The notes below the pieces were generated by a model, which was given only the letters and a program-made list of their open reading frames with translations, made no database searches and had not been told where the DNA came from. A DNA stretch of 64,000 bases from Paenibacillus sp. G2S3 (GTDB taxonomy: Bacteria; Bacillota; Bacilli; Paenibacillales; Paenibacillaceae): contig NZ_CP126095.1 of assembly GCF_030123105.1 (NCBI RefSeq), forward strand, positions 1,302,001 to 1,366,000. The letters are read 5' to 3'. Of this stretch, positions 17,764-64,000 are shown piece by piece. Numbering within the stretch: the stretch's first letter is position 1; each line of letters starts with the position of its first letter. The translations under genes were made by a program, and so were the position numbers.

Positions 17764-17808
17764 CTTAAGATGGAAGGGAAGTCCATATTAGGTAGAGGGG
17801 GCACCTTT

Positions 17809-39528: not shown

Positions 39529-39541
39529 AGGGGATGAAATC

Positions 39542-40414: not shown

Positions 40415-40427
40415 GAGGGTGAAGCTA

Positions 40428-40616
40428 ATGATGACGACAATGTTGGGTAGTGTGAAGAGTTTTTGGAAGGACGAGGAAGGCCTGGGGACACTGGAAATGA
40501 TTCTGATTATTGCTGTGTTGATTGCGGTCGTTCTTTTGTTTAAGGACAAAATTCAGGAGGTAGTGGAGGCTTTGATTAAAACTGCGGGAGAAAAGAGCCA
40601 GGAAGTATTCGAGTGA
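40428..40616 (+). CDS. Flp1-type pilin, operon 1
   Basis: A 62-residue major-pilin candidate. The segment DEEGLGTLEMILIIAVLIAV contains a type IV-like prepilin cleavage point after the Gly in EEG, with Glu at position +5 of the mature protein and a hydrophobic helix. This is the Flp1 (PF16982-like) form of Bacilli and Clostridia. It should be processed by the peptidase at 44642. The mature product is about 40 residues. The ATG at 40428 follows AGGAGGGTG; a GTG at 40419 would put that site too close. Confidence 0.88.
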   Translation: MMTTMLGSVKSFWKDEEGLGTLEMILIIAVLIAVVLLFKDKIQEVVEALIKTAGEKSQEVFE

Positions 40617-41287: not shown

Positions 41288-41347
41288 ATATTTCCTTGCT
41301 AGTGGATCTTGTATCTATTGAAGGTAGGGATAAGGAGGGAGGTTTTG

Positions 41348-43606: not shown

Positions 43607-43624
43607 CAGGAGGTTGGTAAGGAT

Positions 43625-44617: not shown

Positions 44618-44641
44618 GTGAAAGGGAAAGGAGTGTAATCC

Positions 44642-45151
44642 ATGGCGGAGTGGGCATTCTGGGGATGTCTGCCGTTTCTGGCAGCTGCATTTATTACGGA
44701 TCTAAAGTCGATGAGAATACCAAACTGGATCACTGTGTCAGGCTTGCTTGCTGGTCTGCTTGCTCAAGTGCTGATGAGTGGCTGGGATGGACTGCTGAAG
44801 GCTGGTGTGGGTGCTGCTGCAGGATTTTCAGTGCTTCTGATCATGCATTTGATAGGGGCGGTTGGCGCGGGAGATGTTAAGCTTTTTGCCGGGATCGGGG
44901 CGTGGACAGGAATAATGTTTACATTGCAGGTCGTGATGTACTCCGTTCTGTTCGGAGCTTTAATAGGCTGGCTAATTGTTATAAAGAGACGGGAGACAGG
45001 TAGGCGTACGCGTAAGGTTATTAACACAATTTCTGGATTTATATTATTGAAGAGTTCATTCCTAGTAAGAAATAAAGATAGTGAGCTGTTGAGATTTCCT
45101 TTCATGCTGGCTGTAATCCCTGGGACCATATGCGCTTATCTTTATTTTTAA
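44642..45151 (+). CDS. prepilin peptidase TadV/CpaA-like (A24 family)
   Basis: A 169-residue membrane aspartyl protease that should cleave Flp and TadE-like prepilins. Catalytic Asp20 lies in ITDLKSMRIPNW and Asp78 in the GxGD motif GAGDVKLFAGIG. It has about four to five membrane helices and lacks the methylase part of PilD, as usual for TadV. This is the only prepilin peptidase seen in the window. AAAGGAGTG precedes the ATG. Confidence 0.92.
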   Translation: MAEWAFWGCLPFLAAAFITDLKSMRIPNWITVSGLLAGLLAQVLMSGWDGLLKAGVGAAAGFSVLLIMHLIGAVGAGDVKLFAGIGAWTGIMFTLQVVMYSVLFGALIGWLIVIKRRETGRRTRKVINTISGFILLKSSFLVRNKDSELLRFPFMLAVIPGTICAYLYF

Positions 45152-45169
45152 AATAGGAGGTGGTGATGC

Positions 45170-46828
45170 TTGTTGTACGGATTAACCCGTGACTTTATGC
45201 AGCAGGACGGTATATATATGATGCTTGGCGAACCAGAAGGGATGCCGGTGGGTAAGCTTAATATGGTTCAAGCTCGTATGCTGATGAACACCGAAATTCC
45301 TCATCATTTAAGGTTATTACTTAGGGAAGTCGATTTGAAGGTTACCCTGGAATATGCTGTTCTGCGCAAAAAAATGCTCAGTCGTTTGCTCAAAAGTGAG
45401 AAGCTGAGCATGACCTCATTTTTTGGCTTACTTCTGCAAATTGCGCAGGGGATGGAAGATGGCAGGTTATTTATGCTGCGGGCGGATCAGTATGCTTTGC
45501 ATGAGGATTATATTTTTATTGAAGGCTCGTTGCAGAGTGGTAAGGTATACCTCACCTATATCCCTGTTCAGGGGAATGACCCTGCTTCTAAGCTGAGAGA
45601 GTCTCTCAGAGCGCTAATCATGGTGATGATGGCGTCTATCACAGAGCTTACTGGCAGTGGTGTTCAAAGAGTATTGCAATACTGTGGGGAAGAAGAATTT
45701 ACACCAGCGGGCTTAAAGGGTCTTCTTTCAGAGCTGTTGACAGAGGGCGACTCTATTAGAGGGCAATTCAGTAGTAACGAAGAAATGGCATCCACATCAC
45801 CTAAAATGACAGAAGCACGTCTGGTAGAACCTGAAAGACGAATGCACGAGAGAGCAAGGGAACTGTTTGTGAATGAGGCAGCTGCTCCCCAGAAAAAAAT
45901 AAGTGAGCGGAACGAGGAAAAGGGTCTGCATACGCAACAGAACTCAGCTCCGCGGTTAAGCAGCTATTCTAGTCCCAGCTATAGGATGAAAGAAGAGGAG
46001 AGTTCGCTTCGGTCTACGGACGATAATCAGTTGACGAATTCACAATCCTCAAGCTCAAGAACTTATGTAATTCTAGGGTGCTTATTGGGAGATGCATTAT
46101 TATGGAAATTCCTATATTTGAATAGTCCAAAGCCATTATGGCTAGCCGTTTGTGGAATCGCAACGATCGCATTGGCTGCCTTAAGCTGGATGGTATGGAG
46201 CGGAAGGATAAGGTTTGGAAGTAACGAAGATAAGGATCATACAAGTGAGGATTCTGCTGAAGATGCAAACTGGAGTCCGAGTCGAAGAGAATTGGAGTGG
46301 AATTTCGGTAGGAATCCTGTGAACACTGCGCGTCCTGCAGCAACGATTCCAAAGGTAGATCAGCATCCATCCGATCCATTATCTAGCATTCCATCAGCAC
46401 GATCTGAATCAAGAGCAGAAGAATCTAGTTTTGTAACACCACCAGCGCCTATAGCCCCAACCGCTTTATTATCACGGGAGGAAACACCTGAACAAGACAA
46501 ACGCAATGAGAAGCTAGCTCGAAATGTTCCTTATCTCAAAAGAAGCGATGAGGAAGAAGCAGAGTCGGAAACCATAGCGTTAAACCGAACTAGCTTTATC
46601 ATTGGCCGATCGGCAGAAGTAGCTCAGTATGTAGAAAGATCAGAAGGAGCTTCAAGAGTACATGCGGAGATATCTAGGAGCCCAAGCGGATACGTACTTA
46701 AGGATCTCGACTCCAGAAATGGAACGCTTTTTCAAGGCGAAGCCATGATCCCTTACAAAGAGTACCCGCTGTCAGAGGGGACCGTATTTAAGATTGTAAA
46801 AGGAAGTTACACATTCCACATGGGATGA
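45170..46828 (+). CDS. DUF6382 and FHA-domain protein, operon 1
   Basis: A 552-residue protein. The first 180 residues (DUF6382-like, with YGLTRDFMQQDGIYMMLGEP) are cytosolic; two hydrophobic helices lie at about 295-345; the end (about 470-552) is an FHA phosphothreonine-binding domain with IIGRSAEV, SRVHAEISRS and LDSRNGTLFQG motifs. Proteins of this type close many Firmicute Tad operons and probably connect pilus activity to Ser/Thr kinase signalling. The start is TTG with AGGAGG 9 nt upstream. Confidence 0.82.
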   Translation: MLYGLTRDFMQQDGIYMMLGEPEGMPVGKLNMVQARMLMNTEIPHHLRLLLREVDLKVTLEYAVLRKKMLSRLLKSEKLSMTSFFGLLLQIAQGMEDGRLFMLRADQYALHEDYIFIEGSLQSGKVYLTYIPVQGNDPASKLRESLRALIMVMMASITELTGSGVQRVLQYCGEEEFTPAGLKGLLSELLTEGDSIRGQFSSNEEMASTSPKMTEARLVEPERRMHERARELFVNEAAAPQKKISERNEEKGLHTQQNSAPRLSSYSSPSYRMKEEESSLRSTDDNQLTNSQSSSSRTYVILGCLLGDALLWKFLYLNSPKPLWLAVCGIATIALAALSWMVWSGRIRFGSNEDKDHTSEDSAEDANWSPSRRELEWNFGRNPVNTARPAATIPKVDQHPSDPLSSIPSARSESRAEESSFVTPPAPIAPTALLSREETPEQDKRNEKLARNVPYLKRSDEEEAESETIALNRTSFIIGRSAEVAQYVERSEGASRVHAEISRSPSGYVLKDLDSRNGTLFQGEAMIPYKEYPLSEGTVFKIVKGSYTFHMG

Positions 46829-50660: not shown

Positions 50661-50691
50661 TCAAAATCGGATTTTTAAGGAGGTGGAAGGT

Positions 50692-51435
50692 TTGGCTTTA
50701 CAGCGCGGGCAACTGTTAAAACGCAACTATTTCTTCGCAAGTCTCATTCTGATTACTGGAGTTGGCGGACTGCTGGGCTATGATCTTTATTTCAAGCCCT
50801 ACGTGCTCTCCCGAACCGTGGTCAAAATTAAGGTGGAAGGCGGGGAGCTTCTTCCCAAAAATTATGAGCTGAAAGCAAGTGATTTGTATCTGGATTCTGT
50901 TCAGACCAAGGATATACCTTCCGGTGTAATTACAGACATTGCACAAGTGGAGCACAAAATTACGAATGTAAATCTGACTAACGGAATTATTTTGACTACA
51001 TCGCTAGTGGATGTCAGTGATTTGGAGCCACTGGAGGATGAAGGGATTTTTCCTATACCGAAGGAGGCCATCTATGCCATCAATGGTTCACTGCGCAGTC
51101 GGGATAAGGTAGACATTTATCTTGTAGAAGCTGATCAAGAGAAGCGGAGTGAATCGCTTAGCCCAAATAACAAGAAGGAAGGGCAAGAGCTGATAGAGCA
51201 AAGTCCACTTAGCGAACCGGCAAAGGAGGTGTTTTTATCTGGAGTCACCGTAAACTATGTGCGAACTGAAGACAATAATGATGTGCTGGATTCAGAAAAG
51301 GGCAACAACAATAATCGATTGACTTCGACTGGCAAGGTGGCGACACCAGAATTGAAGCTGAAGAAAAGCGATGGACAACAGCTAGGACAATTTTTAGAGC
51401 AGGGGAAGAAGCTGTGGATCGTACGGGTTGAGTAG
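50692..51435 (+). CDS. CpaB/RcpC-like SAF-domain protein, operon 2
   Basis: A 247-residue protein with one N-terminal membrane helix (about 15-30) and an exported part that opens with a SAF-like fold (KVEGGELLPKNYELKASDLY, VTNGIIL-type turn as NVNLTNGIILTTSLV), as in CpaB/RcpC proteins that line the Tad channel. In Gram-positives a short SAF protein at the head of the operon is usual. The later half is acidic and probably flexible. TTG start, AAGGAGG 9 nt upstream; GTG at 50683 is too close to that site. Confidence 0.72.
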   Translation: MALQRGQLLKRNYFFASLILITGVGGLLGYDLYFKPYVLSRTVVKIKVEGGELLPKNYELKASDLYLDSVQTKDIPSGVITDIAQVEHKITNVNLTNGIILTTSLVDVSDLEPLEDEGIFPIPKEAIYAINGSLRSRDKVDIYLVEADQEKRSESLSPNNKKEGQELIEQSPLSEPAKEVFLSGVTVNYVRTEDNNDVLDSEKGNNNNRLTSTGKVATPELKLKKSDGQQLGQFLEQGKKLWIVRVE

Positions 51436-51447
51436 GAGGGAAGAGCC

Positions 51448-52512
51448 TTGAAAATATTTAGTCTAGGCATAGATCAGTTAACCATTAATGATATCAAAAA
51501 TGCGGGGTTTATTGTTATCACACAAAGTGTACTTCCTGATCCATCTCATGCAGAGGGGCATATGCTAATGGTTACCAGTGACCAGATTCAAGCTCAGTCA
51601 CTTAGCGAACTGCGCCGGAATTATCCGAGCTCAACGATCCTATATGTATATTTGCAAAAGGGAATCAGTGGTTACCAAGCTGTACATATGCTGTGTGAAA
51701 GCTTAGGAATCTATTTTATTCCTCCTCGTTCTACCTCGTCAGCGGTGATAGAAAAAATTCGTTTTATTCTAGACGAGGACGGGGAGGAACGAAGTAATCT
51801 GGTTGGTTTTTTTGGCTCAGGGCCGGGGATTGGCTGTACTAGTGTAGCAAAACTGTTTGCAAGGCGGATTGCCGCAGCAGGCCTTCGTGTTATTGTCCTT
51901 GGACTTGATTTATATGATCCCGGCTATGACCGCAAAGCGACCATTAGTCTGGATAGGCTTCGATCAAGGCTTAAAGGGAAGATGATTCATGATGAGGATT
52001 TCGAGCAATTGATTAAGCAAGACGGCTACTCGTATCTCCCGGGCAATTACGATTACTTGAGCGCACAAGACTATCAGGAGGATGAGATTGAATATTTTTT
52101 GGCTAGAGCTGGAGCAAATGCAGATGTGGTTATTGCTGACTTTGGCTCTATTCCGGAAAGCGCTGCGTGGTATGTCGGAATGCACAAATCGTCACTGCGT
52201 ATGATCGTCACTCATCCCAAGCACGAATACAGGCTCGAACCTCTACTAGAGCTTGCTGGGCATATGGATTTACGGCCACATGATTTTCAGCTGATTATTA
52301 ACCGCAGTAATGTGGAAGAAATATCTTCTCCTAAAAATCTAGCGCTTCGCTTTGGGACTGAAATCTTACTGGAGTTACCTTATTACCAGCCCTTGCAGGA
52401 GAGCTTACCTCTAGGCAAAAAAGAGCTGCAGCATGTGGATGATAAAGTACATTCTCTGCTCGTGTCGATGAGCCTAGCGCCAGAAGCTAAAAAGAAAGGT
52501 ATATTCCTATGA
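51448..52512 (+). CDS. TadZ-like protein with degenerate P-loop, operon 2
   Basis: A 354-residue protein that follows the TadZ/CpaE plan: a receiver-like first domain, then a MinD/ParA-like domain. The P-loop region reads FGSGPGIGCTSVAK (residues 122-135), where the Lys before Thr (as in GKTT) is Cys; the later DVVIADFGSIPES still resembles the Walker B region. ATP binding is therefore doubtful and the protein may act as a static polar or membrane landmark. Its stop overlaps the next start by ATGA. Confidence 0.78.
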   Translation: MKIFSLGIDQLTINDIKNAGFIVITQSVLPDPSHAEGHMLMVTSDQIQAQSLSELRRNYPSSTILYVYLQKGISGYQAVHMLCESLGIYFIPPRSTSSAVIEKIRFILDEDGEERSNLVGFFGSGPGIGCTSVAKLFARRIAAAGLRVIVLGLDLYDPGYDRKATISLDRLRSRLKGKMIHDEDFEQLIKQDGYSYLPGNYDYLSAQDYQEDEIEYFLARAGANADVVIADFGSIPESAAWYVGMHKSSLRMIVTHPKHEYRLEPLLELAGHMDLRPHDFQLIINRSNVEEISSPKNLALRFGTEILLELPYYQPLQESLPLGKKELQHVDDKVHSLLVSMSLAPEAKKKGIFL

Positions 52513-53954
52513 ACGGAAATCAAACGAATCGACCGTTGTTCTCTCTAAAACAAAGTATCCTACGCTTGAGCAAACCGGGCAAGGAAGACTTTTATGCATT
52601 TTTGCAAAAAATGAAAAACGATATGAATGAAGGACTGGAACGGGAGGATGATGCTTACTTCGAGTTAAATGCGAAGGCACTAATTGGCGATCCGCAGGCG
52701 GTTAGCTTTTTTATGAATGAGATAGAGAAGTACTTACGAAAAACACCCTTTACCGGCAAGGTTCCCGAAGCATACCGAACGGCGGCAGAAGCGCTCTATC
52801 ACGAGTGGAAGGGCTTTGGTCCGGCGTATCGCTGGTTTACTGATCGTGCATACAGTGAGTCAACTGGGCTTCAGATGATCGGAAAGCAAATCTTTTATAA
52901 CCATAAAGGTGAGTTTGTAGCTTATCCCTATGAGATGCCATCGTTAGATCGGGTCGAACAGTTAAAGCGCTCCTTATTAAAAAGTGATCCCAATAAAAAG
53001 CTGAACAAGGACAACCCTTCAGTGGAGTTTAAAATGGATGACCCGCTCTGGCCTGGCCGATTTATTCGGCTTGCCATTTGGGTATCCCCGAGAGTGTGGG
53101 ATGGCTTCACTACAATATCGTTGCGACGACAGGTTGTAGAATTTTTGAGTCTAGAAGATCAGGCGGGGACGGAATGTATTCCAGCGGAAGCAGTTGAAAT
53201 GATTCGGGCGTTATCCTCCACCTTTCGCAATACCATTATTGCGGGTGCTGTAGGCTCGGGAAAAACAACTTTTGCAAATACGATTGTCGGCGAGCAATTG
53301 CTTGGATCTTCATCCTGTATGGGTGTAGTGATGATAGAGAAGCATCCGGAGTCGATTTTACCTTATCAGATTAAGGGGCACCGAATTATTCCAATACAGG
53401 CTACGAACGAGGAATTGATGGAGGTAGGGGTAGAGTCTCTGCGGCATGACCCGAACATTTTGTATATGACCGAGATGCGGTATAACGAATGGGAGTTTTA
53501 TTTGTGGAGTGGGGAAAAAGGGTATGACGGTATCACTGGAACCTTCCACACCGTAGATTCGGAGGATATTCCTTATCAAGGCGCTTTTGCCGTGTCGACA
53601 AGGATTGGCGGGAGCCTTAAGGGTCATTTGATCTCTGCACTGAAATCATGCGAGCTGGTCTTTATTTTGGAAAGTGTTCCGAACGGGAAGAAGCGGCTGA
53701 CGCGAATATCGGAAGTTTTTTATGACGAGGACAAGAACTCTGTATTTGCGAATGATCTGATGCGCTGGGAACCTCAGAAGATGTGTTGGTCTTACAATGA
53801 CAAGCTGACGAAGAGCCTGGTTCTGAAGATGACTAAGAAAAATGAGCAGGCGACACAGTTGCTCCAGAAAGAGCTAGGACGGCTTGCAGCAGTAAAACCA
53901 ATGGAACAGCCTATCAAGGAAAGCTTGAAATCTAAGATTGTTCTTAACGAGTGA
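52509..53954 (+). CDS. TadA/VirB11-like secretion ATPase, operon 2
   Basis: A 481-residue ATPase, much diverged from the operon-1 TadA and about 70 residues longer. Walker A is GAVGSGKTT (246-254), the Walker B-like segment RHDPNILYMTEMRYNEW, and a His box GITGTFHTVDS are all present, so it should be active. The N-terminal 100 residues are helical with no clear relative. A long C-terminal tail (about 430-481) is lysine-rich. This is the only intact NTPase in operon 2 and so its probable motor. Confidence 0.85.
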   Translation: MNGNQTNRPLFSLKQSILRLSKPGKEDFYAFLQKMKNDMNEGLEREDDAYFELNAKALIGDPQAVSFFMNEIEKYLRKTPFTGKVPEAYRTAAEALYHEWKGFGPAYRWFTDRAYSESTGLQMIGKQIFYNHKGEFVAYPYEMPSLDRVEQLKRSLLKSDPNKKLNKDNPSVEFKMDDPLWPGRFIRLAIWVSPRVWDGFTTISLRRQVVEFLSLEDQAGTECIPAEAVEMIRALSSTFRNTIIAGAVGSGKTTFANTIVGEQLLGSSSCMGVVMIEKHPESILPYQIKGHRIIPIQATNEELMEVGVESLRHDPNILYMTEMRYNEWEFYLWSGEKGYDGITGTFHTVDSEDIPYQGAFAVSTRIGGSLKGHLISALKSCELVFILESVPNGKKRLTRISEVFYDEDKNSVFANDLMRWEPQKMCWSYNDKLTKSLVLKMTKKNEQATQLLQKELGRLAAVKPMEQPIKESLKSKIVLNE

Positions 53955-53966
53955 GGAGGTGAAACC

Positions 53967-55016
53967 GTGGATTTATTATTGTATATTCTTCGTTATGTCC
54001 TTCATTTGTTGATTGTTTGGGGAATATGGTTACTTATTAAACGGCTAATCGAACGGCATTTACGACAGGTAGGTCAGAAAGTCGATTTTCGGATCAAACA
54101 TAAAATGAGTATTTTTGGCAAAAGAGTTAGCTCGGTTAAAAAAAGGCTGTGGCTCTACCGTCATCTAGATAATCTTTTATATTTCGTACACCGAAAATAT
54201 GAGCCGGGAATCAGCGTTATGCGTTTTGCCACGCGTACAGCAATAGTGTTTATTGCAGTTTTTCTATCAGGACTACTGACGCTAAGTGAGCTTCCTGGGC
54301 AATTGAGTTTTAACAATCCTTTTCTGGAGGGGATCACCTTTAATGAAGGGCGTTCGATTCAGGGGGCTTGGAGATTTCCACTTTTTATGGCTTTGATTTC
54401 TGCTACGATTCCTTATTTTCGTATGAGATACATCTATGCGCAGAGGAAGGTACATGGAAGCTATGATTTACTCGATGTGGTCAAAATCTCCACCAAATTC
54501 ACTCACTTGTCGGTAGATTCCATTCTCGATCGGACAGCGGATTTTCTTACGGATAATAATGTATTGAAGGGCCCTCTGAAGCTACTAGGAGCTGCATTTT
54601 CTAATTACAGTAATGAGAAGGAGCTTGTTGAGGAAGCCGGTAGATTTTCCAATGCGATTGGTACTACCTTCGCCCTAGAATTTATATCGGATCTGCTCTA
54701 TGCCGAGAAGGAAGGAACCCGTTATTTAAAAAGCTCGTTGATGCTGTTAAACCGTTCTATGGAGCAACAGAGAGAAACGATTTTGACTGTAAAAGCGGGA
54801 AGTAGAGATGCGATCAGCCTTGGCTTATATGGGAATCTTTTGGTGCTGGTATCTACGGTTGGAACCTTTATGTACATGCTGAAGCCGGATGTCTATTTCC
54901 AATTGCAATTTGAGACTACAGTAGGACTTTCCTTTTTGATGGTGATCGTTTCTGGACTTTTTATTTCTTTTGTGATCAGCACTATTCTCGCCAGACCTAA
55001 ACTGGACTACCACTAA
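53967..55016 (+). CDS. TadB-like T2SSF membrane protein, operon 2
   Basis: A 349-residue membrane protein with helices at about 5-23, 88-106, 133-148, and two near the C-terminus (about 285-305 and 320-340). The cytosolic part contains YDLLDVVKISTKFTHLSVDS and LKSSLMLLNRSMEQQRETIL, which fit the helix-rich T2SSF core, but the sequence is far from the operon-1 TadB. GTG start after GAGGAGGTG, 12 bp behind the ATPase gene. Assignment rests on position and topology. Confidence 0.65.
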   Translation: MDLLLYILRYVLHLLIVWGIWLLIKRLIERHLRQVGQKVDFRIKHKMSIFGKRVSSVKKRLWLYRHLDNLLYFVHRKYEPGISVMRFATRTAIVFIAVFLSGLLTLSELPGQLSFNNPFLEGITFNEGRSIQGAWRFPLFMALISATIPYFRMRYIYAQRKVHGSYDLLDVVKISTKFTHLSVDSILDRTADFLTDNNVLKGPLKLLGAAFSNYSNEKELVEEAGRFSNAIGTTFALEFISDLLYAEKEGTRYLKSSLMLLNRSMEQQRETILTVKAGSRDAISLGLYGNLLVLVSTVGTFMYMLKPDVYFQLQFETTVGLSFLMVIVSGLFISFVISTILARPKLDYH

Positions 55017-55027
55017 GGTGATGAGCT

Positions 55028-55897
55028 ATGGACAGATTGTTACTATTAATTACCGTAATCGGGATTGTATATATCGCATTACTTGTATTTGTAAGCAGCA
55101 GTAGTAAACAGGAACGATATCTTGTCCGACTAGAGCTACGGTGGAATGAGCTCGGGGAACGGGTGCAGGGGGATAGATTTCAGCAATTATTGAATGATTC
55201 TGGTTTATCGATTTCGGCCCGTAAAATTACGCTCTTCCGTTATTCAGCAGCGCTGATTTATTTAATAACTCAAGTCGTCAGCGATTTCATTCGTTCTAAT
55301 TCTTTTTCTATTTATGACCCTCTAATTGCTCTACTTATTCTCGTAATCAGCAGTCCGATGCGCTATCTTCCGTTTGGCTGGGTGCTTGCATGGCTTCATC
55401 AAAAAACGGTTATTAAAAAAGACGGTGAGCTGATCTCTTTCATCCGTCTATACGAGAATAATCGGCTACGCAAGCGCGGATATGCGCAATTTGGCACTTT
55501 TTGCGGGAGTACGGCTGGACATTTTCAATATATACGTCAGGACTTATACGAGTTGTCAGAACGAGCAGTAGATGAGGGTGTAGAGGGGGCGATTGAATGG
55601 TTTTGTGCAAAGTTTCCGGATAATCATAGTTTTATTAATGACATTCGGTCCATTTTGTTGGCTACAGAGGGTATGGATGACGACACAGAAGCGGCGAATT
55701 ACTTACGTGAACAAGGTAAGATTATCTCCAAAATCTCAAGCGATCAGTATTTGAAAAAGTGGTCTTTTATCGGAGATCTATCTACGATCATTAATGTGAT
55801 CCCATCGATTGCAACTTTTTTAATGATTGTCGCGATGGCGATGCAGTACATTTTGCTGATCAAAGGAAATTTTAATGGGGTCGGCATGTTCCAGTGA
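55028..55897 (+). CDS. TadC-like membrane protein, operon 2
   Basis: A 289-residue protein with an N-terminal helix (about 3-20), two middle helices (about 70-120) and a C-terminal one (about 258-278, IINVIPSIATFLMIVAMAMQ). A soluble middle with LYELSERAVDEGVEGAIEWF resembles the T2SSF helix pairs of TadC. It partners the gene before it, as in Tad loci. The ATG starts 11 bp after the upstream stop. Sequence support is weak; position is the stronger argument. Confidence 0.6.
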   Translation: MDRLLLLITVIGIVYIALLVFVSSSSKQERYLVRLELRWNELGERVQGDRFQQLLNDSGLSISARKITLFRYSAALIYLITQVVSDFIRSNSFSIYDPLIALLILVISSPMRYLPFGWVLAWLHQKTVIKKDGELISFIRLYENNRLRKRGYAQFGTFCGSTAGHFQYIRQDLYELSERAVDEGVEGAIEWFCAKFPDNHSFINDIRSILLATEGMDDDTEAANYLREQGKIISKISSDQYLKKWSFIGDLSTIINVIPSIATFLMIVAMAMQYILLIKGNFNGVGMFQ

Positions 55898-55953
55898 GAA
55901 ATTGTATGTTCAACATTATTTAAAAAATATAAAATAAAAGGGAGATTTTAACA

Positions 55954-56163
55954 ATGAAAAAGGACGCTATTTCTACAGGGTTGTTTATCGCTATCGGATT
56001 TTTGTGTGTGGCCATCGTAATTGCCGTTTTGATTCCAGTGGTGCGAGAAGTAATTGATGCTACGGATGATAACAAACCGACGATTCCGGGTGTAACCTTA
56101 GTTCAGCCGTTGGATTCAACCCAAACTGCAGTTGCCCGGGTCTTGAACCACACTTCGGTTTAA
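55954..56163 (+). CDS. one-helix pilin-like microprotein A, operon 2
   Basis: A 69-residue protein: MKKDAISTGLFIAIGFLCVA starts it, a short charged head and a membrane helix (about 8-30), then a Thr/Pro-containing exposed tail. It occupies the place of the Flp pilin, but no Gly-x4-Glu prepilin site is visible, so cleavage by TadV is doubtful. The gene at 56171 is a paralogue. GGGAGA precedes the ATG. Confidence 0.7.
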   Translation: MKKDAISTGLFIAIGFLCVAIVIAVLIPVVREVIDATDDNKPTIPGVTLVQPLDSTQTAVARVLNHTSV

Positions 56164-56170
56164 CTCGGCT

Positions 56171-56314
56171 ATGAAAAAAGACTCTATCTCCATTGCAATG
56201 TTTCTGGCCATTGGTTTTGTGATCGCAGGGATGTTTATCACAGTAGCTACGCATATCATTGGCAGCAGTCAGGACGATATCATCACACATACTAAGCAAG
56301 TAGAGCAATATTAG
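56171..56314 (+). CDS. one-helix pilin-like microprotein B, operon 2
   Basis: A 47-residue protein starting MKKDSISIAMFLAIGFVIAG, clearly a paralogue of the protein encoded just before it (shared MKKDxIS and AIGF) with a shorter acidic tail ending KQVEQY. It starts 7 bp after the upstream stop and has no good ribosome site of its own, so it probably depends on coupled translation. Together the pair might be major and minor subunits of a fibre, or membrane adaptors; both are inference. Confidence 0.68.
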   Translation: MKKDSISIAMFLAIGFVIAGMFITVATHIIGSSQDDIITHTKQVEQY

Positions 56315-56329
56315 AAGGAGGCGTTTCTA

Positions 56330-56710
56330 TTGAAGGAGACCGTCCTCCGGGCATTATTCATGTGGCTTGTCCTGTTTATTATCCTGCAGCCCATTTTTAC
56401 CTATATCGATTATCTGCTAGATTTACAAGTCAAAGCTAATACGTCCTACATCACACAAAAAGCTGCAACGGAGGGGATGGTCACAGCGTCTATGCGGAAC
56501 GAAGTGATTTCAAATCTGAAGGCGATTGGGTTCTCAGAGGGTTCCATCGAAATTACGAGTAGTACGGACACCGTTCAAGAGCGGAAACAACGGATTGATG
56601 TGTATGTAACTGCGCCGCGGGTAAATTTGTTTCCGTATAATTTCTCCACGGTTTCGCAGCCGACCCGATATTATGGACATGGGTCAATTATGAGTGAATA
56701 TCTCGATTGA
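56330..56710 (+). CDS. TadE/pseudopilin-like protein 1, operon 2
   Basis: A 126-residue protein with an N-terminal membrane helix (about 6-28) and an exported domain. The segment ITQKAATEGMVTASMRNEVI resembles the helix after the membrane part in TadE-type and type IV minor pilins. There is no clear Glu+5 prepilin site. TTG start with GAAGGAGGC upstream. It is followed after 20 bp by a similar-sized protein. Confidence 0.6.
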   Translation: MKETVLRALFMWLVLFIILQPIFTYIDYLLDLQVKANTSYITQKAATEGMVTASMRNEVISNLKAIGFSEGSIEITSSTDTVQERKQRIDVYVTAPRVNLFPYNFSTVSQPTRYYGHGSIMSEYLD

Positions 56711-56730
56711 TTAAGGGATGAGCCTAATTT

Positions 56731-57228
56731 ATGGATTACATTATTAAGCTGGCATTTGTCCTACTGATCTTTATCTACTCCTGGTTCTTTCAGATCCAGA
56801 ATCAGGAGTGGGACATGCTGCGCAGCATGCTAAAAGATGCAAACAATATCGCCGTTCACGACGCCGCACAGGAATTAGATGAAACTGAACTCACACGAGG
56901 TCGTCTAATTATCGATCCTGCGCTTGCTTACGATACTTTTCAGCATACCTTGCAGTTAAATCTTGGACTAGATAACGGTCTTTCTCCCAAAATGGGCAGC
57001 CGTTTTAAAAATCAAGTAAAGATTGTGAAGTTTGATATTGTTGATGATTCGGACGGAGTGACTTTTCCGCTTTTATACGAGGATAGTGAATATGGCATTA
57101 CCAAATACATAGAGGGTCCCTCGGTTATTGCCGTCATTGAGACGAAACATCCGCTGCTGATCTCCAGAGCCAAAACACAAGAGCCAATCAGAGTACCTGC
57201 AGTTCAGGAGTATAAGTTTAATAAGTAG
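56731..57228 (+). CDS. pseudopilin-like exported protein 2, operon 2
   Basis: A 165-residue protein with one N-terminal membrane helix (about 3-20, IIKLAFVLLIFIYSWFF) and an exported region with NNIAVHDAAQELDETELTRG, a helix again like those of TadE-type proteins, then a beta-rich end. No family was recognised. It lies between the other small exported proteins of operon 2 and so probably belongs to the same extracellular assembly. Confidence 0.6.
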   Translation: MDYIIKLAFVLLIFIYSWFFQIQNQEWDMLRSMLKDANNIAVHDAAQELDETELTRGRLIIDPALAYDTFQHTLQLNLGLDNGLSPKMGSRFKNQVKIVKFDIVDDSDGVTFPLLYEDSEYGITKYIEGPSVIAVIETKHPLLISRAKTQEPIRVPAVQEYKFNK

Positions 57229-57263
57229 GAAAAATCCAATTGAGACAAGGGAGAGATTTGGGG

Positions 57264-57914
57264 ATGAAGAGAGTTGTAAAGGCGACTTTAGTAGCGACAA
57301 TGTTATTTAGCGTGGTATTGGGGCAGGGAGTGGTTGCAAATGCGGAAACGGTTACACCAGTAGTTACGGCTAAGCCAACGACAACAATGGAACCAGCCAC
57401 CACCGCGAAACCTGCAGCAACACCAGTGCCTATTATGAGGGATAATCTGAGTAAATTTGGGCTGGAAAAAGAAGTGGAGTTGCCTGTGACAGTTACGGCG
57501 GGTGGGTTGAGTTATACGTTGGAGAAGATAATGATCTTTGATGCAAAGTCCAAAGATGCTCAAGCACTGATTAAGAAGTTCAAATATTCCGGAGAAGGGA
57601 AGTACTTTATTTGGACTAAAATTACAGTGGAAAATAATAGTGGTAATACAATTAAAAAAGATTATACGGATTTAAGTGAGAAATGGCGCTTAGGATTTGG
57701 TAACAAATTAGATGCGTATCCAACTATGCCAAGAAGCAAGGATACTTCTGTGAACGACAAAGAGGCACTATGGGGATGGAAATTAGCGCCGGGACAGAAA
57801 ATGACTACCTACCAAGCCTATTACTATGATGGAGATTTTAAGTCTTTTGTTATTTGGTTAGACAACAAAAAAGATTCGGCTACAAAATACATCGTAAACA
57901 CTTCAGAAGTTTAA
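57264..57914 (+). CDS. secreted DUF4352-like protein, operon 2
   Basis: A 216-residue secreted protein. Signal peptide about 1-27 (cut after VVANA), then a Thr/Pro/Ala-rich spacer (about 30-55), then an immunoglobulin-like beta-sandwich with FIWTKITVENNSGNTIKKDY and APGQKMTTYQAYYYDG, as in telomeric/DUF4352-type domains. It may be a cell-surface component of the second apparatus. The ATG at 57264 follows GGGAGAG; a TTG at 57240 is less likely. Three bp separate it from the next gene. Confidence 0.65.
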   Translation: MKRVVKATLVATMLFSVVLGQGVVANAETVTPVVTAKPTTTMEPATTAKPAATPVPIMRDNLSKFGLEKEVELPVTVTAGGLSYTLEKIMIFDAKSKDAQALIKKFKYSGEGKYFIWTKITVENNSGNTIKKDYTDLSEKWRLGFGNKLDAYPTMPRSKDTSVNDKEALWGWKLAPGQKMTTYQAYYYDGDFKSFVIWLDNKKDSATKYIVNTSEV

Positions 57915-57932
57915 GAGGTGATGAAGTTGCAG

Positions 57933-60212
57933 ATGAAGAAAAATAAAAAAATCAGGATATTCTCAATTATTCTTATAATTGGTCTATTACTTTCGCCAAA
58001 CTTGATGAATTCAGCTCAAGCAGCAGAGGTGAAATCTGGATCAGTAAGTATACCTATTACAACTGGATTAACGGGATCAGGGAATGCAGCAAAAACTTTT
58101 TACTTAGACCCGCCTAGTGGAGTAAACGTCGCTGCAATTAAAGCAGGAACTTTTAAATATTCAGGCAATAACAGCTTAGTTGGAGCAATTAGCGTAGAGA
58201 ATGGAAAAATAAAAGTTACACTCAAAGGTAATGAAAAAGTTGAAACGTTTAATGTTACAGGAATGGATGGTAACGATCCTGAAAAAGTTTTTAAAAGTAC
58301 GCCGGGTAACTCTATTTGGCGATATGCAGATGGGCGAAGATGGCAGATTAATGATTATAATCAAGATCGTGGAGTGAACACAAGCAAAAACGTAAACGCT
58401 ACAGATTTTAATACTCCATCAGACGAACCACCAAAAACAACTGTTGCCACAAAATCTGATCCAGTTAGTCCGAGTCAAGCAACATGGTTTAGAGACAATG
58501 TTAATACTATCCCATACAGTAATATTATTCAGTCTAGCATTAAGCTGGTACCCATGGCGCTTCAAGGGGACAAAGGGCAAGTTGGACAAAAAAACGGGAA
58601 ATTCATTATTACTTATCAAGTACCATCAGGGCAATATACACCCGAACAACCGTCGGATACCTTTGATAAAGGGATTTGGGTAATTGGGCGGCTATATTAT
58701 ATCATTTTGCCATACTACTTCACTGCCGAAGCAAAAATGACCTCATATAGCTATGCGGGAACTGTCAATTTTGATTATGCACTACCTGATCAAGTTATTT
58801 TGAATGCTTCAGCTACATTAATTGAACCCAACCCGAATCCTGCGAAAATGACTGGTGACAAAGTTGCTGTAAAAATTAATGTTAAAGGTGAATTACTAGC
58901 CTATACAGACACTTCTAATATTTCTGAATGGGCGTTTTATGCAAGAGAGAAAGAAATAGCTGTTGCGGATATGAAGAAAGAATATTCAAAAGTTCTTACT
59001 GCGGGTAAAGACTTTGATTTTTCAATCCCAGCGTCCAAATTGGTGGGAAAAGATAATTATAAACAAGACTATGCTATAAAGGTTGTCGTACGGTTCAAAA
59101 ATCCAGTACAAACAAAAGCAGGTCCTATTTCATCTTTAGAGGCAGGACCTGAGATATCAGCTGGAGTGTATAAGAAAGATCCTCCAGGTGATCTTTTCCC
59201 TCCTAACCCAAACCCACCAGCTAAACCTGAAGGTAAACCGCCCATCGCACGGATCAGCGCCCCTAAATATGTCAAAGCTGGAGACGACATGATGGTGTAC
59301 GGAGGCGCTTCTTCTGATCCGGATGGTTATATCACAGATTATTCCTGGGGTACTCAAGGAGCGCAGGGTGGGATCGGTAATACAGCACGAGGATACATAT
59401 GGTATACAAGAGATGATGTAGGGCAGACTTTCCCAATTGGGCTCACAGTAGTTGACAACGATGGTCAAATTGGGAGTACTAGTACTGAGGTAACAGTGAT
59501 TGAACCTAAGCCTGCTGCTATATTAAACATTTCTGGCACACTAAAACAAAATCGAAAAACAACGCTCATGAATATTAGTCAAAGTCCTACTCGTTTTCCA
59601 TTGGTCCCATCAAAAACTCAGATCTCTATCAGTGCTGTTTCTGGTGGTACGAATGCAGATATTAAATACAGTGGTACGTTAGCTGATTTTCAGAGTAAGG
59701 ATATTCTATTTAAGAGTCCAGGTAAATATAAAGCTACAATTTATGTGGAAAATACCTTGGGATATTCTGATCGTAGTGAACTGATTTTTGATATCGTTCC
59801 AGATGAATTGCCATTTGCTTACTTTGGGATGCCGGGAAAAGTATACCGCGATCCGAGTAATGGAAATAAGGCAGTGGTTTCAATAGATGATATGTCTTTT
59901 ACTAAGGATAAAGATCCACTCATTCGTCGGATTTGGGAATATCGTTACGATTCTAATAACAACGGATCTTTTGCAGATGAGAGTTGGGCTCGGTTTAACG
60001 AAGAGAATCGCACTCGTCTGAATTTGGAGCTATATGAAGTCGGAAAATATGAAATACGTCTTACAGTTCTCGAAGAATTTGGACAGCCCACGATTGAAGA
60101 ATTTGTAACTGAAGATGATAGAAAACGGATAAATTCTGATAGCACACAAAATCTCATTGAACGGATTGTAGAGGTGGAGAATCGGGCACCAGAGGTAGAT
60201 TGGGATCTATAA
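57933..60212 (+). CDS. large secreted PKD-domain protein, operon 2
   Basis: About 759 residues. Signal peptide about 1-31 (ending SAQAA), beta-rich modules, a Pro-rich hinge (PPNPNPPAKPEGKPP, about 430), a PKD domain (about 437-530 with GASSDPDGYITDYSWG and GQTFPIGLTVVDNDGQ), and more Ig-like modules to the end. It is likely an exported adhesin or fibre subunit. Start could be ATG 57933, TTG 57927 or ATG 57921; AGAGGTGA at 57913-57920 favours the later two less clearly. It forms a tandem with the longer gene after it. Confidence 0.7.
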   Translation: MKKNKKIRIFSIILIIGLLLSPNLMNSAQAAEVKSGSVSIPITTGLTGSGNAAKTFYLDPPSGVNVAAIKAGTFKYSGNNSLVGAISVENGKIKVTLKGNEKVETFNVTGMDGNDPEKVFKSTPGNSIWRYADGRRWQINDYNQDRGVNTSKNVNATDFNTPSDEPPKTTVATKSDPVSPSQATWFRDNVNTIPYSNIIQSSIKLVPMALQGDKGQVGQKNGKFIITYQVPSGQYTPEQPSDTFDKGIWVIGRLYYIILPYYFTAEAKMTSYSYAGTVNFDYALPDQVILNASATLIEPNPNPAKMTGDKVAVKINVKGELLAYTDTSNISEWAFYAREKEIAVADMKKEYSKVLTAGKDFDFSIPASKLVGKDNYKQDYAIKVVVRFKNPVQTKAGPISSLEAGPEISAGVYKKDPPGDLFPPNPNPPAKPEGKPPIARISAPKYVKAGDDMMVYGGASSDPDGYITDYSWGTQGAQGGIGNTARGYIWYTRDDVGQTFPIGLTVVDNDGQIGSTSTEVTVIEPKPAAILNISGTLKQNRKTTLMNISQSPTRFPLVPSKTQISISAVSGGTNADIKYSGTLADFQSKDILFKSPGKYKATIYVENTLGYSDRSELIFDIVPDELPFAYFGMPGKVYRDPSNGNKAVVSIDDMSFTKDKDPLIRRIWEYRYDSNNNGSFADESWARFNEENRTRLNLELYEVGKYEIRLTVLEEFGQPTIEEFVTEDDRKRINSDSTQNLIERIVEVENRAPEVDWDL

Positions 60213-60234
60213 GTGAAGAACGGAGGATGGTCTT

Positions 60235-63200
60235 GTGAAACAAAAATTCAGGATAAGCTTCATTTTATATTTCTTGTTAATTTTTACAATATTGCCAATC
60301 TTACCTCAACCATTATCAGAGAGGGTAGGAATAAGTACGACAGCTCAGGCTGCTGATGATGATAACATTATTAACTACAGGGATATTACTTTTAATAGTG
60401 GGTTTGCAACACATGCACAACCCAATACAATTAATATCCGTTTCCCAGCAATTAAAGTTACAAACATTTCTTATAACAAGATAACTAAACAATTATTTTA
60501 TGATATAGCACCTGGCGCAGCTCCTATGAATATTGATATCAACTGGAACAACAATACTCCGCCAGGGCAGTCTCATTTATGGAATCAGAAACTAACAATA
60601 GATATGTGTGGTTCTGCCTACACTGAGGCGGGGTATGAACGCGAAAAAAACCGATTATACGGGTTGGATCAAACATGGACATGTTCGGCCGGAAATTATT
60701 TTTGGGGTCAAACTCAGAACTGGAGCACTGACTATGGAACGCTCTATAATATTGGCCTTGCACATACCGGAAGAGAGATTAATCTAGATTTTGACCTTTC
60801 TACTATAAGAAGCGCCATGAAGACTACTTATCCTAATATCTTCACACAAGGGCACAATATGTTTAACCCAGCTGATGATGATAATTCAAACCCTCCCGAA
60901 CTTTTTCGAATAAGATTCCTTGCATTCTCAGGATGGTATAGAACGGATTTGGGTCCGTCAGAGGGGCCCTACCAAGCAAATTATGAACCTGGAGGTTATA
61001 CGCCCTACATGACTGAGGTTGCTAAATTGATTCCTAACCATCCTCCTTCTATTTCGGTAGGGACACCGAATGGTATAACGCTAGTAAATGCGCCTGGACT
61101 GAGTGGTATCAATATTGAAGGATATGTAAGTGATCCGGATAACGAAGATGTGACGGTTACTGCAGAGATTCCTAACGTATTTTATAAGAAGACTACAGTA
61201 TATAAGGCGCAATCGTCAAAACCATTTTACATCCCAATAGATGCGATTGATGATGCTTTATCACCTGGGTCTTACAATATGATAATTACAGCATCTGATC
61301 CTTCAGGAATGAAACAATCAAAGAATTTAACTATAAATGTCAAACAGCAGATGAGGAATAAGTCATTTATCCTTATCAATACCCCTGTTGAAACGAGAAC
61401 CAAATTCTTTGATTCTGAAGGAGATTCGAAATCCACAGAACGTTTCAGATATGATCATAATCCTTATTTCTATGATAACTCTATGGGGATTATTGGAGAT
61501 TCAGGATTATGGAGAACATCTACTTATTCTTCATTCCCCTATAGTGGGGTATATATTGCGACCTTTCAGGGTCGAGATAATCCCAAAAATGATGACCGAT
61601 TTGATGTTTACCGGAAATGGAGCCGGGATAATTTATCCTCTATGACTTTTCATGTGCATCGAAAGCCGATAGCTTTATTCAGTGCGAAGTTGATGGGAGG
61701 ATATATTCAAATCTCTGATAGCTCTTACGATCTAGATCACATTACTGCGACCAATAAAGGGCTTGTCGATAGACAATGGCAGTATAAGAAAACAGAAGCT
61801 TCGATATGGAATGATGGCCAGCCGCCTAATCCGTTGCCAAGTAATGATCAATACGATATTCGGCTAAGAGTAAGGGACATGGATGGTGAAAATGGGTTAG
61901 GCATATGGAGTGATTGGTGCCAGAGGACAGTAGGAGCAGCTGCAAATCTACCTCCTGTAGCGCTATTCACAGTTGAGCCTAATATTGTTTCCTACCGTAA
62001 GGCCACGACGATTATAGATAAATCATTTGATCCGGATAATGATCCATTGGATATTTATTATTGGACAGTAATTAAAGATGGATGGAATAAAGTATGGGAG
62101 CATTGGGGTGGAGCGACAACACCGCCGAATATCGCCGCGTTTGGACCAGGAAATTATCAAATAAATCTACAAGTACATGATAATCGTGGTTTGTGGTCGG
62201 AATGGTATAGTCAAAGCGTACAAGTCATGAATCACCCACCTGCAGCCGCTTTTAATATGCCATCTGAAGTATATCGAGATACGCTCATTACGATGCAAAA
62301 TACGACACCAGATCCAGATGAAGATGGAGATTCGCTGTCTTACGCATGGTACGCTAGACTTAATAACAGCCCTTATTATTATGCGGGTAGCAATCGTAAT
62401 CAATCCATGGCAATCAGGGATTTAATTGCAAGGAGTGGGGTTTCACCTCAACAAGCGATATCTGATGGATGGGAAATGCGACTTAATGTTTCAGATATAC
62501 CAGTAAGCTCGAATGTTTCAGCATTGACTTCGTATGCTACACGTATGTTTACTGTTAAAAACCATATTCCAACAGCAGGAATTAATGGACCAAGCAGTGT
62601 TTATCAGTTTGATACTATAACATACTATGGGGTGGATTCTGATAATGATCCATCTGATATCAGTAGTTTGCAGTATTACTGGAAAGTTACAGATAGTGAT
62701 GGTGCAACTGATATGTACCGGACTCCTAATATCAAAATTGATTTTCCTGAGTCTGGGATCTACACACTAGAACATTGGGTTGTGGACCAGATTGGTGATA
62801 AGTCCAACATAGCTACCCTGAAGTTAAATGTAGCTAAGAATCTGCCTCCAACTTTAACTCTCACTACTCCTGCTGGAACCACAACTAATCCGTCGGTAAT
62901 AGATGCGGAGTTACAAGGAGATCCACTCATTAAGTGGACGTATACAGATCCAGAAAATGATCCACAGGAAAAGTATAGACTGGAGTTTTATTCGAAGGAT
63001 GATCTCTTGGTAAAGAGTGTTGAAAATCCGGATAGCAGCGGACTACTTAGACAATATCAAATCCCAAACAACACATTTGAACGCTTCGAAAAATTTACCG
63101 TCTATGGACGAGCCTTTTCAAAATTGTCTTGGTCAGAAATATCTAATGAAAAAACATTCATCATCGATAATCCCCCTAAGCCGGGATTCACTCTGATCAC

Positions 63201-64000
63201 AGATACTGGTAAAGATGCGACTAAGGTGCCAATCTACCGGACGGACGTTCTGAACATTAAGAGTACCGCCTCTGATTTGGATGAACCAAAAGGAGATACA
63301 ATAAGTCATAAGTATTTCTTAAAACCATCAAGTGGAACAGAAGTCTTAGCAAGCACTCAAAAGTACTTCACGAAGCAGTTTAGTAGTAATGGTGTATTCA
63401 CCTTTAGACAGCTTGTAACGGATTCTCTGGGGCTGTACCGTGAAATATCCCATAGTATAACAGTTGTGAATCGAATTCCAACAGTTAATATTACGTATCC
63501 TACCAGTACGGACTCGTCAAAACCGACAATCGCAAGCACACTCACCCCGATCATTAAATGGGATTATCAAGATGAGGATGGAGATCTACAGCAACGTTAT
63601 AAGGTGCGAATTATAAATTTAGCCACGGGAACGATCAAAGTTCAATCTGGAGAACAAGTTTCAAGCGCAAAACAATGGCAAGTACCAGCTGAAGCACTGA
63701 TTGAGAATGAAAAATATGCCGTTGAAGTGGAAGTCTTTGATGGTTATAACTGGAGCAATATTTCTCCTCGAAAATATCTCATGGTGAATCTATTGAGCAT
63801 TAAAGGAGGCGTTAAGCACACCCAAGAGTGGAACAACAACCGTAAAGGCTACAATCTGAAAAAGAGTGGCAATGAGGAGAGTCCAAGAGGCTACAACGTA
63901 TTTTGGGCAGGAGAACGTTTTGTTCTACAAGGTACAGCTACAGGTCTCCCGGATACTGTGCAAGTAACCATGAACGGAGGGTTCACTACGCAGCTCAGCC
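60235..64000 (+). CDS. very large secreted PKD/Ig-repeat protein, 3' end missing
   Basis: Open frame from GTG 60235 (CGGAGGATGG upstream) to the window edge: at least 1255 residues, no stop. Signal peptide about 1-38 (ending TTAQAA). Then repeated Ig/PKD-like beta-modules, each opening with a NHPP, NLPP or NRIP motif and holding a DPDxD or DxDND turn (for example PPVALFTVEPNIVSYRKATT and DKSFDPDNDPLDIYYW). About eight to ten modules are seen. It is probably the surface adhesin or long fibre of the second Tad-like system, perhaps wall-anchored by a C-terminal part beyond the edge. Calcium-binding Asp/Asn turns are likely. Confidence 0.75.
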   Translation, partial: MKQKFRISFILYFLLIFTILPILPQPLSERVGISTTAQAADDDNIINYRDITFNSGFATHAQPNTINIRFPAIKVTNISYNKITKQLFYDIAPGAAPMNIDINWNNNTPPGQSHLWNQKLTIDMCGSAYTEAGYEREKNRLYGLDQTWTCSAGNYFWGQTQNWSTDYGTLYNIGLAHTGREINLDFDLSTIRSAMKTTYPNIFTQGHNMFNPADDDNSNPPELFRIRFLAFSGWYRTDLGPSEGPYQANYEPGGYTPYMTEVAKLIPNHPPSISVGTPNGITLVNAPGLSGINIEGYVSDPDNEDVTVTAEIPNVFYKKTTVYKAQSSKPFYIPIDAIDDALSPGSYNMIITASDPSGMKQSKNLTINVKQQMRNKSFILINTPVETRTKFFDSEGDSKSTERFRYDHNPYFYDNSMGIIGDSGLWRTSTYSSFPYSGVYIATFQGRDNPKNDDRFDVYRKWSRDNLSSMTFHVHRKPIALFSAKLMGGYIQISDSSYDLDHITATNKGLVDRQWQYKKTEASIWNDGQPPNPLPSNDQYDIRLRVRDMDGENGLGIWSDWCQRTVGAAANLPPVALFTVEPNIVSYRKATTIIDKSFDPDNDPLDIYYWTVIKDGWNKVWEHWGGATTPPNIAAFGPGNYQINLQVHDNRGLWSEWYSQSVQVMNHPPAAAFNMPSEVYRDTLITMQNTTPDPDEDGDSLSYAWYARLNNSPYYYAGSNRNQSMAIRDLIARSGVSPQQAISDGWEMRLNVSDIPVSSNVSALTSYATRMFTVKNHIPTAGINGPSSVYQFDTITYYGVDSDNDPSDISSLQYYWKVTDSDGATDMYRTPNIKIDFPESGIYTLEHWVVDQIGDKSNIATLKLNVAKNLPPTLTLTTPAGTTTNPSVIDAELQGDPLIKWTYTDPENDPQEKYRLEFYSKDDLLVKSVENPDSSGLLRQYQIPNNTFERFEKFTVYGRAFSKLSWSEISNEKTFIIDNPPKPGFTLITDTGKDATKVPIYRTDVLNIKSTASDLDEPKGDTISHKYFLKPSSGTEVLASTQKYFTKQFSSNGVFTFRQLVTDSLGLYREISHSITVVNRIPTVNITYPTSTDSSKPTIASTLTPIIKWDYQDEDGDLQQRYKVRIINLATGTIKVQSGEQVSSAKQWQVPAEALIENEKYAVEVEVFDGYNWSNISPRKYLMVNLLSIKGGVKHTQEWNNNRKGYNLKKSGNEESPRGYNVFWAGERFVLQGTATGLPDTVQVTMNGGFTTQLS

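Follow-up and report, generated by a model that had tools for sequence, protein, structure and literature searches.

Cleavage of prepilins by an A24 peptidase is treated as a defining step of type IV filaments, and the free N-terminal amine that it creates is the normal contact partner of Glu5. In the SpoIIIA apparatus of spore formers, a T2SSF-type fold works without pilin processing. As far as the portions of the following reports available to us go, a few clostridial and Desulfitobacterium tad-like loci have no prepilin motif but do have tadV (PMC3244431), MSH loci without a peptidase of their own may use that of another system (PMC6668835), PAPI-1 and IncI are known to conjugate with the help of a type IV pilus and Gram-positive conjugation systems are without VirB11 homologs (both in the review PMC12857230), and Sulfobacillus thermotolerans plasmids pL15 and pY0017 carry Tad-like genes beside conjugation genes (PMC6803676). 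Here we describe operon 2, the second of two tad-like loci in a 64,000-nucleotide stretch (the window, meaning the whole of the DNA analyzed) that corresponds to bases 1302001-1366000 of the single-contig, 6.70-Mb genome of Paenibacillus sp. G2S3. This genome is close to that of Paenibacillus etheri, whose counterpart of the operon 2 ATPase is 98% identical.

We propose that operon 2 encodes a Tad-like contact apparatus, probably leaderless, of a conjugation-linked kind that in this branch has become fixed on the chromosome and that displays exchangeable Ig/PKD adhesins, a reading that we consider moderately probable. The operon consists of 12 tightly packed genes on the + strand, with spacings that range from overlaps of a few bases to about 60 bases at most, in the order SAF/CpaB-like, TadZ-like, TadA-like, TadB-like, TadC-like, microproteins A and B, p126, p165, p224, p764, and p1316. 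A preliminary description of this DNA had recognized a Tad-like gene order here, which the open reading frames (ORFs) and profile matches bear out, and had placed it at 50692 to 64000; the operon is real, with its actual start at 50683 and its end at 64185, 185 bases beyond the window. The comparison locus, operon 1, lies outside operon 2 (36305-46828, + strand) and is a canonical Tad locus (TadZ-like, TadA, TadB, TadC, Flp1, two TadE-like proteins, TadV peptidase, and FHA protein), with profile matches to T2SSE (E = 1.9e-54), T2SSF (2e-11 and 9.1e-10), Flp1_like (4.9e-18), TadE (1.2e-5 and 2.4e-6), and A24 (2.7e-19).

The proteins of the operon 2 machine are recognizable but distant relatives of their Tad counterparts. 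The TadA/CpaF/VirB11-family ATPase (481 amino acids; 52509-53954) is 25% identical to operon 1 TadA over 300 columns (BLASTP E = 4e-14), and its matches to TIGR03819 (E = 1.7e-12) and PF00437 (E = 1.4e-5) lie below the NCBIfam and Pfam cut-offs. A profile of 24 sequences of this family retrieves solved VirB11 (E = 1.1e-10) and CpaF (E = 3.3e-7) chains, and the P-loop S250-G251-K252, E322, R324, E327-W328, and H347-T348 are invariant in 24 aligned ATPases including the query. Because these residues, the P-loop lysine among them, are invariant and because the profile finds VirB11 and CpaF, the ATPase is likely an active motor. The TadZ/ParA-like protein (354 amino acids; 51448-52512), whose homologs are annotated as ParA family, is 24% identical to the TadZ-like protein of operon 1 (BLASTP E = 1e-4). 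The first gene encodes a SAF-domain, CpaB (RcpC)-like membrane protein (250 amino acids; 50683-51435) that matches CpaB (TIGR03177, E = 0.0029) and the FlgA C terminus (E = 0.0017), both far under the curated cut-offs; its plasmid homologs are annotated as SAF domain proteins.

Two platform-like proteins come next. The TadB-like protein (349 amino acids; 53967-55016), placed by its gene position, had no T2SSF match of its own in the Pfam search, and such a match occurs in 5 of 19 family members (E <= 0.1; best, 7.9e-5). The TadC-like protein (289 amino acids; 55028-55897) gave no significant BLASTP match to operon 1 TadC (E = 0.55), and none of 21 family members matched Pfam T2SSF; some homologs carry the UniRef name GspF-domain. 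In a Foldseek search with its AlphaFold2 model (predicted local distance difference test [pLDDT], 73.5), SpoIIIAB ranked first (probability, 1.00; TMt, 0.67) but with a weak E value of 0.3, and the PilC N-domain appeared only at rank 43 (E = 4.9; TMt, 0.61). The platform role is thus tentative, that of TadB drawing on sequence and that of TadC on a weak fold match. As the sequence comparisons have it, operon 2 is a real Tad-like operon that is far diverged from operon 1, and the distance between the two that the preliminary description had reported is confirmed for the TadA, TadZ-like, and TadC-like proteins.

That SpoIIIAB is the best solved match of the TadC-like model raises the possibility that operon 2 encodes no pilus but a peptidase-free, SpoIIIA-like export or channel machine that moves the PKD proteins or other cargo beyond the wall. 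Such a machine would also agree with the lack of a recognizable pilin site and with the large exported proteins encoded by the last genes. However, the N termini of the PKD proteins p764 and p1316 resemble ordinary Sec signals on reading of the sequence, the long-helix-plus-sheet layout of p165 is pilin-like, and the microproteins stand in the place of flp, so that we consider an export machine quite improbable. The earlier suggestion that operon 2 may be a secretion system gained no support from the analysis, and a surface appendage, the other half of that suggestion, is the likeliest output.

Four pilin-like proteins follow the platform genes. Microproteins A (69 amino acids; 55954-56163) and B (47 amino acids; 56171-56314), candidate leaderless mini-pilins, form a conserved tandem pair in the chromosomal loci, with A at the position equivalent to that of flp in operon 1; by inspection, A has a single hydrophobic helix that starts within about 10 residues of the start. 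B was missed in the preliminary description; it is shorter than the smallest ORFs that the initial list admitted. The p126 protein (56330-56710) is pilin-like or TadE-like with a membrane helix at its very start, and M1, P21, A45, G49, R85, S122, and E123 are invariant in an alignment of 19 loci. The AlphaFold2 model of p165 (56731-57228; pLDDT, 86.5) has an N-terminal helix of residues 2-46 followed by a beta sheet, a layout that is pilin-like by eye, with no significant match among solved structures. No Pfam TadE match was found for p126, p165, or the p165 family, though both proteins sit at the TadE/TadF position. An M23 peptidase domain occurs at the C terminus in 2 of 20 aligned p165 family members, with fusions on two Planococcus plasmids (L066:16105-17001 and L069:16394-17317), and in 52 of 120 p165 homologs among the matches listed, in a search whose profile itself held M23 columns. 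The presence of this domain in relatives suggests that the C terminus of p165 lies outside the membrane.

None of these four proteins in the window carries a Gly/Ala-x4-Glu site on reading, in agreement with the earlier claim of a pilin without Gly-x4-Glu. The site, defined as Gly/Ala-x4-Glu followed by a hydrophobic stretch, was sought in 45 loci with operon 2 relatives (L005 to L038 plus 11 loci on plasmids, L064 and L076 not being among them; L025 and L034, on truncated or damaged contigs, were kept). It was present in none of the 108 micro-ORFs that have a membrane helix (spurious overlapping ORFs being among these), in 1 of 43 p126 proteins (L068, at residue 2), and in 0 of 45 p165 proteins, versus 34 of 36 pilin controls from operon 1 of 12 other genomes of the genus (Flp, 12/12; one TadE-like protein, 12/12; the other, 10/12). 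Both misses among the controls (L084 and L091) look like wrong choices of ORF or start. A further operon 1 protein of 765 amino acids has a site-like stretch without the glutamate and matches in 3 of 12 genomes, at odd places; operon 1 is therefore not uniformly canonical either. The hydrophobic stretch of p126 starts no later than residue 9 in 41 of 43 proteins and that of p165 no later than residue 11 in 44 of 45, so near the start that almost no leader is left to remove.

Genome-wide, there are two A24 peptidases, TadV of operon 1 (44642-45151) and a 258-amino-acid protein at 6158781. The whole-genome A24 search gave no match in or behind operon 2, and no Flp pilin was found among the ORFs read downstream, so that neither a peptidase nor a normal Flp turned up just past 64000, where the preliminary description had left room for them. 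Its statement that a peptidase is absent holds for operon 2, which has none of its own, and fails for the window, which holds TadV of operon 1. These results bear on the possibility that operon 2 encodes a Tad pilus of the usual kind that evolves fast and depends on operon 1 TadV, or on the other A24 peptidase of the genome, to mature its pilins in trans, for which the MSH loci that may borrow the peptidase of another system offer a precedent in the part of that report we draw on (PMC6668835). A candidate enzyme is at hand, as all 27 chromosomal loci have operon 1 TadV, and 99 of 100 genomes of the genus have operon 1 TadA, usually 15 kb upstream. However, the substrate site and nearly all of the leader are missing, and 9 of 11 related plasmids have no A24 match (in the plasmid sequences only, not host chromosomes), and we regard maturation in trans as unlikely. 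A joint loss of cleavage and of Glu5 would be chemically coherent.

Plasmids of Bacillaceae, Planococcaceae, and Alicyclobacillaceae carry relatives of operon 2, most of which have conjugation genes as neighbors, and the view that the system is an uncharacterized one of Paenibacillaceae was thus too narrow in its taxonomic scope. From 106 plasmid records with an ATPase match, 12 were chosen (H1-H5, H7, H11, H12, H13, H16, H18, and H20) and H45 was added from a second list; with L031, L032, L033, L035, and L038, contigs from the genome scan that are not shown to be plasmids, they make up 18 loci outside the chromosomal clade, which is defined by adjoining purU and operon 1. A coupling protein, a VirB4-like ATPase, or an annotated type IV secretion system (T4SS) or relaxase gene lies in the flank of 15 of the 18 (L032, L033, L035, L038, L059, L060, L061 [weak], L062, L064 [by annotation], L066-L070, and L076; L071-L075, fetched via the coupling protein, are excluded from this count). 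Conjugation genes were not found in the fetched flanks of L031, L063, and L065, nor in any of the 27 chromosomal loci (flanks up to 10 kb). In eight loci spanning Paenibacillus, Bacillaceae, and Planococcaceae, the order coupling protein, S1 protein, Replic_Relax, p508 or p513, SAF, TadZ, TadA is collinear; the first three proteins are homologous throughout, and p508 and p513 cluster separately. Conversely, 14 of the 16 plasmids with the closest coupling proteins (at least 45% identity, among the matches listed) also appear in the TadA list.

This linkage could mean that operon 2 is a DNA-transfer apparatus in its own right that still moves DNA, its relatives being neighbors of coupling proteins and VirB4-like ATPases. 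The window genome has no match to the coupling-protein domain TraG-D_C (PF12696), which is present on 9 of the 11 related plasmids. It has no match to Replic_Relax either, the one model to which the relaxase search was limited and whose status as a relaxase is not settled, nor to CagE_TrbE_VirB (PF03135), the only VirB4 model run there and an insensitive one for Gram-positive VirB4. Furthermore, on three plasmids whose wider surroundings were read, the coupling-protein gene is approximately 10, 25, and 34 kb away from a separate T4SS module. We therefore judge DNA transfer by operon 2 to be very improbable, and the Tad-like part of the plasmids is likelier to serve as an accessory device for contact than as the DNA channel.

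Some plasmid records deserve separate mention. On the Paenibacillus sonchi plasmid (L059:11893-25219), TadZ, TadB, and p1316 are each in two pieces, as pseudogenes or through sequencing errors. In the Aeromonas plasmid pNe-1 (L064), a Gram-negative record, relatives of SAF-TadZ-TadA adjoin genes for a MOBQ relaxase and for T4SS DNA transfer, and the Klebsiella grimontii record CP079755.1 (H92) matches the Bacilli coupling protein at 41%, perhaps by contamination. On Lysinibacillus and Virgibacillus plasmids reached via the coupling protein (L073 and L074), annotated secretion-ATPase and SAF or CpaB-like genes lie near it, and the family may extend beyond what the ATPase search reveals.

Within the genus, the operon 2 ATPase is present in 63 of 100 genomes (E <= 1e-40) and operon 1 TadA in 99 (E <= 1e-60; broken in a few). 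The latter include all 63, so that no genome of this set has the operon 2 ATPase without an operon 1 TadA match. Of 66 operon 2 hits, 57 sit 14.0 to 15.6 kb downstream of operon 1 TadA on the same strand, 2 at 59 and 73 kb, and 7 on other contigs; a second copy, on a contig of its own, occurs in three genomes. The ATPase has matches in 20 of 22 same-genus genomes versus 4 of 175 others in a family sample (E <= 1e-59) and in 23 of 398 genomes at the class level (E <= 1e-25), 12 of these being of the same genus. Among the 27 chromosomal loci (L025 and L034, on the truncated or damaged contigs, excluded), 26 match every operon 2 gene plus purU and operon 1 tadV; L028 is without the three surface genes and carries a different cassette, and the p764 of L007 is split in two. 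A tree was built from four proteins of 28 loci (12 of the 27 chromosomal loci used; L064, L065 [TadA broken], and L070 left out). In it the chromosomal loci form a monophyletic clade (UFBoot, 100), which is joined by two copies linked to a coupling protein (UFBoot, 95). The tree is consistent with a single capture from an ancestor of the plasmid type and a later loss of the transfer genes, with the direction depending on the rooting.

A captured module might also be a decaying leftover. Neither the transfer genes nor p508/p513 are matched in the chromosomal loci, and 37 of the 100 genomes have no match to the ATPase at the threshold used. Against decay, every operon 2 gene has a match in the 26 loci just mentioned, and the ratio of nonsynonymous to synonymous substitution rates (dN/dS) of the eight machine genes tested is 0.03 to 0.08 between operon 2 and its close sister locus L005. 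The ratio was computed against seven partner loci, with dS saturated for most of the distant ones; where it was computable in distant partners, it reached 0.24 for microprotein A and 0.15 for p165. A leftover in decay is thus highly implausible.

The last three genes form a surface cassette with a history of its own. It is opened by p224 (57240-57914), a small secreted protein with a signal-peptide-like N terminus by inspection, which is exchanged together with the next two genes. These encode p764 (57918-60212), a secreted PKD-domain protein (PF18911, E = 2.4e-7), and p1316 (1,316 amino acids; 60235-64000, with the stop codon outside the window at 64185), a secreted Ig/PKD protein (PF25788, E = 1.2e-8; PF18911, E = 1.6e-8), all of these matches exceeding the cut-offs. 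Across 25 chromosomal loci including the window (the comparison left out L007, L010, and L028), identities of TadC (r = 0.91), p126 (0.88), and p165 (0.82) correlate with those of TadA, and the correlations are far lower for p224 (0.17; P = 0.09), p764 (0.34), and p1316 (0.44; P = 0.001 for both); p764 and p1316 track each other (r = 0.84). Between the window and L005, TadA, TadC, p126, and p165 are 96 to 98% identical, and p224, p764, and p1316 are 55 to 65% identical.

For 5 of the 25 loci, the closest p764 lies outside the clade (L059 for L009 and L015, L038 for L011 and L014, and L031 for L029), despite TadA identities of only 64 to 67%. The P. jilunlii locus L015 shares 6,548 bp at 86.7% with the P. 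sonchi plasmid L059, from p224 to the end of the fetched locus (TadA, 64%; the p1316 identity of L059 refers to the larger of its two pieces only), L011 shares 6,228 bp at 84.8% with L038, starting just inside p224 (TadA, 67%), and L029 shares approximately 73% with L031 in two pieces. The simplest account of these sequences is block exchange of the three surface genes between chromosomal and plasmid-type copies. Through such exchange the same surface proteins would serve both machines, and contact specificity is therefore the likeliest job of the cassette. Alternative cassettes behind the same machine (L028:14782-21128, L032:15538-21426, L033:15100-21409, and L035:15095-21417) consist of a protein of 305 to 519 amino acids and a giant ORF of at least 1,581 amino acids; three of the four extend to the locus end, and the smaller protein of L028 and L032 has an S-layer-homology-like stretch by inspection.

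Taken together, our proposal of a conjugation-linked contact apparatus would work as follows. The family would comprise Tad-derived type IV filament machines, the other members examined being mostly on Bacilli plasmids by conjugation genes. The TadA-like ATPase and TadB/TadC platform would assemble the tiny pilins A and B, which, beginning at the membrane helix, would need no leader removal and together with p126 and p165 would form a short filament or pseudopilus that crosses the wall of the Gram-positive cell. In this structure p165 would face outward, bearing a wall-cutting M23 domain in relatives, and p224, p764, and p1316, exported by Sec and shown outside, would confer contact specificity. 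On the plasmids the device would be an accessory for mating contact beside a separate T4SS; in the lineage of the window, the transfer genes would be gone and a chromosomal function in cell contact or adhesion kept. A more far-reaching joint reading, which we put forward tentatively and regard as rather doubtful, is that this is a type IV filament lineage fully without prepilin processing (leaderless pilins that polymerize with no A24 peptidase and no Glu5 contact) and that a machine derived from a conjugative plasmid has been fixed on the chromosome in Paenibacillus, where its exchangeable Ig/PKD cassette would serve in cell recognition as the match of those that conjugative plasmids carry, whether for mating reception, partner choice, or exclusion.

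A family with site-less pilin-like proteins would make the dispensability of processing directly testable in a soil genus. The conjugation-gene link and the shared cassette provide specific candidates for the step at which Gram-positive mating partners make contact, and they suggest that a plasmid-type contact device was fixed on a chromosome. That Tad genes occur beside conjugation genes is already in print for Sulfobacillus (PMC6803676); the passages of that paper on which we draw hold nothing on prepilin sites, chromosomal relatives, or surface-gene exchange, and our literature search found no account of a Tad family without both site and peptidase, of chromosomal fixation, or of cassette exchange.

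Operon 2 is preceded by purU and followed by putative GNAT, YiiX-like, and transketolase genes that are unrelated to it, all named from a reading of their sequences alone, and an ORF of 2,312 amino acids lies elsewhere in the window (17770-24708). In genome G053, operon 1 tadA is split at residue ~297 by ~42 kb (L093:1001-3627 and L094:18565-18924); by inspection the insert is prophage-like and a junction ORF is large-serine-recombinase-like. Matches to operon 1 TadA end at residues 292 to 334 in 9 of the 100 genomes, which contig ends may explain in some, and tadA may therefore be a recurrent phage attachment site. The operon 2 TadA match is unbroken in G053, G239, and G242.

Compared with known systems, operon 2 shares with Tad/Flp (type IVc) loci such as operon 1 the TadA-family ATPase, a pair of candidate platform proteins (TadB/TadC-like), TadZ-like and CpaB-like proteins, small single-helix proteins at the flp position, and more pilin-like proteins behind them. 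It differs in the absence of a Gly|x4-Glu site from its pilin-like proteins and of TadV from the locus, in an ATPase of only 25% identity and a TadC without a significant match, and in giant Ig/PKD proteins inside the operon. The clostridial and Desulfitobacterium loci, set side by side with it by description, likewise have tad-like genes while none of their proteins shows an apparent prepilin signal, but tadV is present in theirs, whereas operon 2 has no peptidase gene (PMC3244431, for the part available). SpoIIIAB alone of the SpoIIIA components appeared in the TadC-like fold search. The SpoIIIA gene set differs from that of operon 2 and is not known to include such microproteins. In the portions of the reports cited, the Sulfobacillus plasmids pL15 and pY0017 likewise unite MinD-like, TadA-like, and TadB/TadC-like genes with a relaxase, TraG-like and VirB4-like genes, and a transglycosylase on Firmicutes plasmids (PMC6803676), and in PAPI-1 and IncI a type IV filament cooperates with VirD4/VirB4-type proteins in mating (PMC12857230). 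The window copy differs from the former in having no transfer genes, and from the latter, which are Gram-negative, in having the filament part only; both are likened by description, not by sequence. Operon 2 resembles a Tad machine, but as two defining features of Tad, the site and the in-locus peptidase, were looked for and not found in it, we do not file it as a Flp/Tad pilus, nor, as far as tested, is the window copy a conjugation system.

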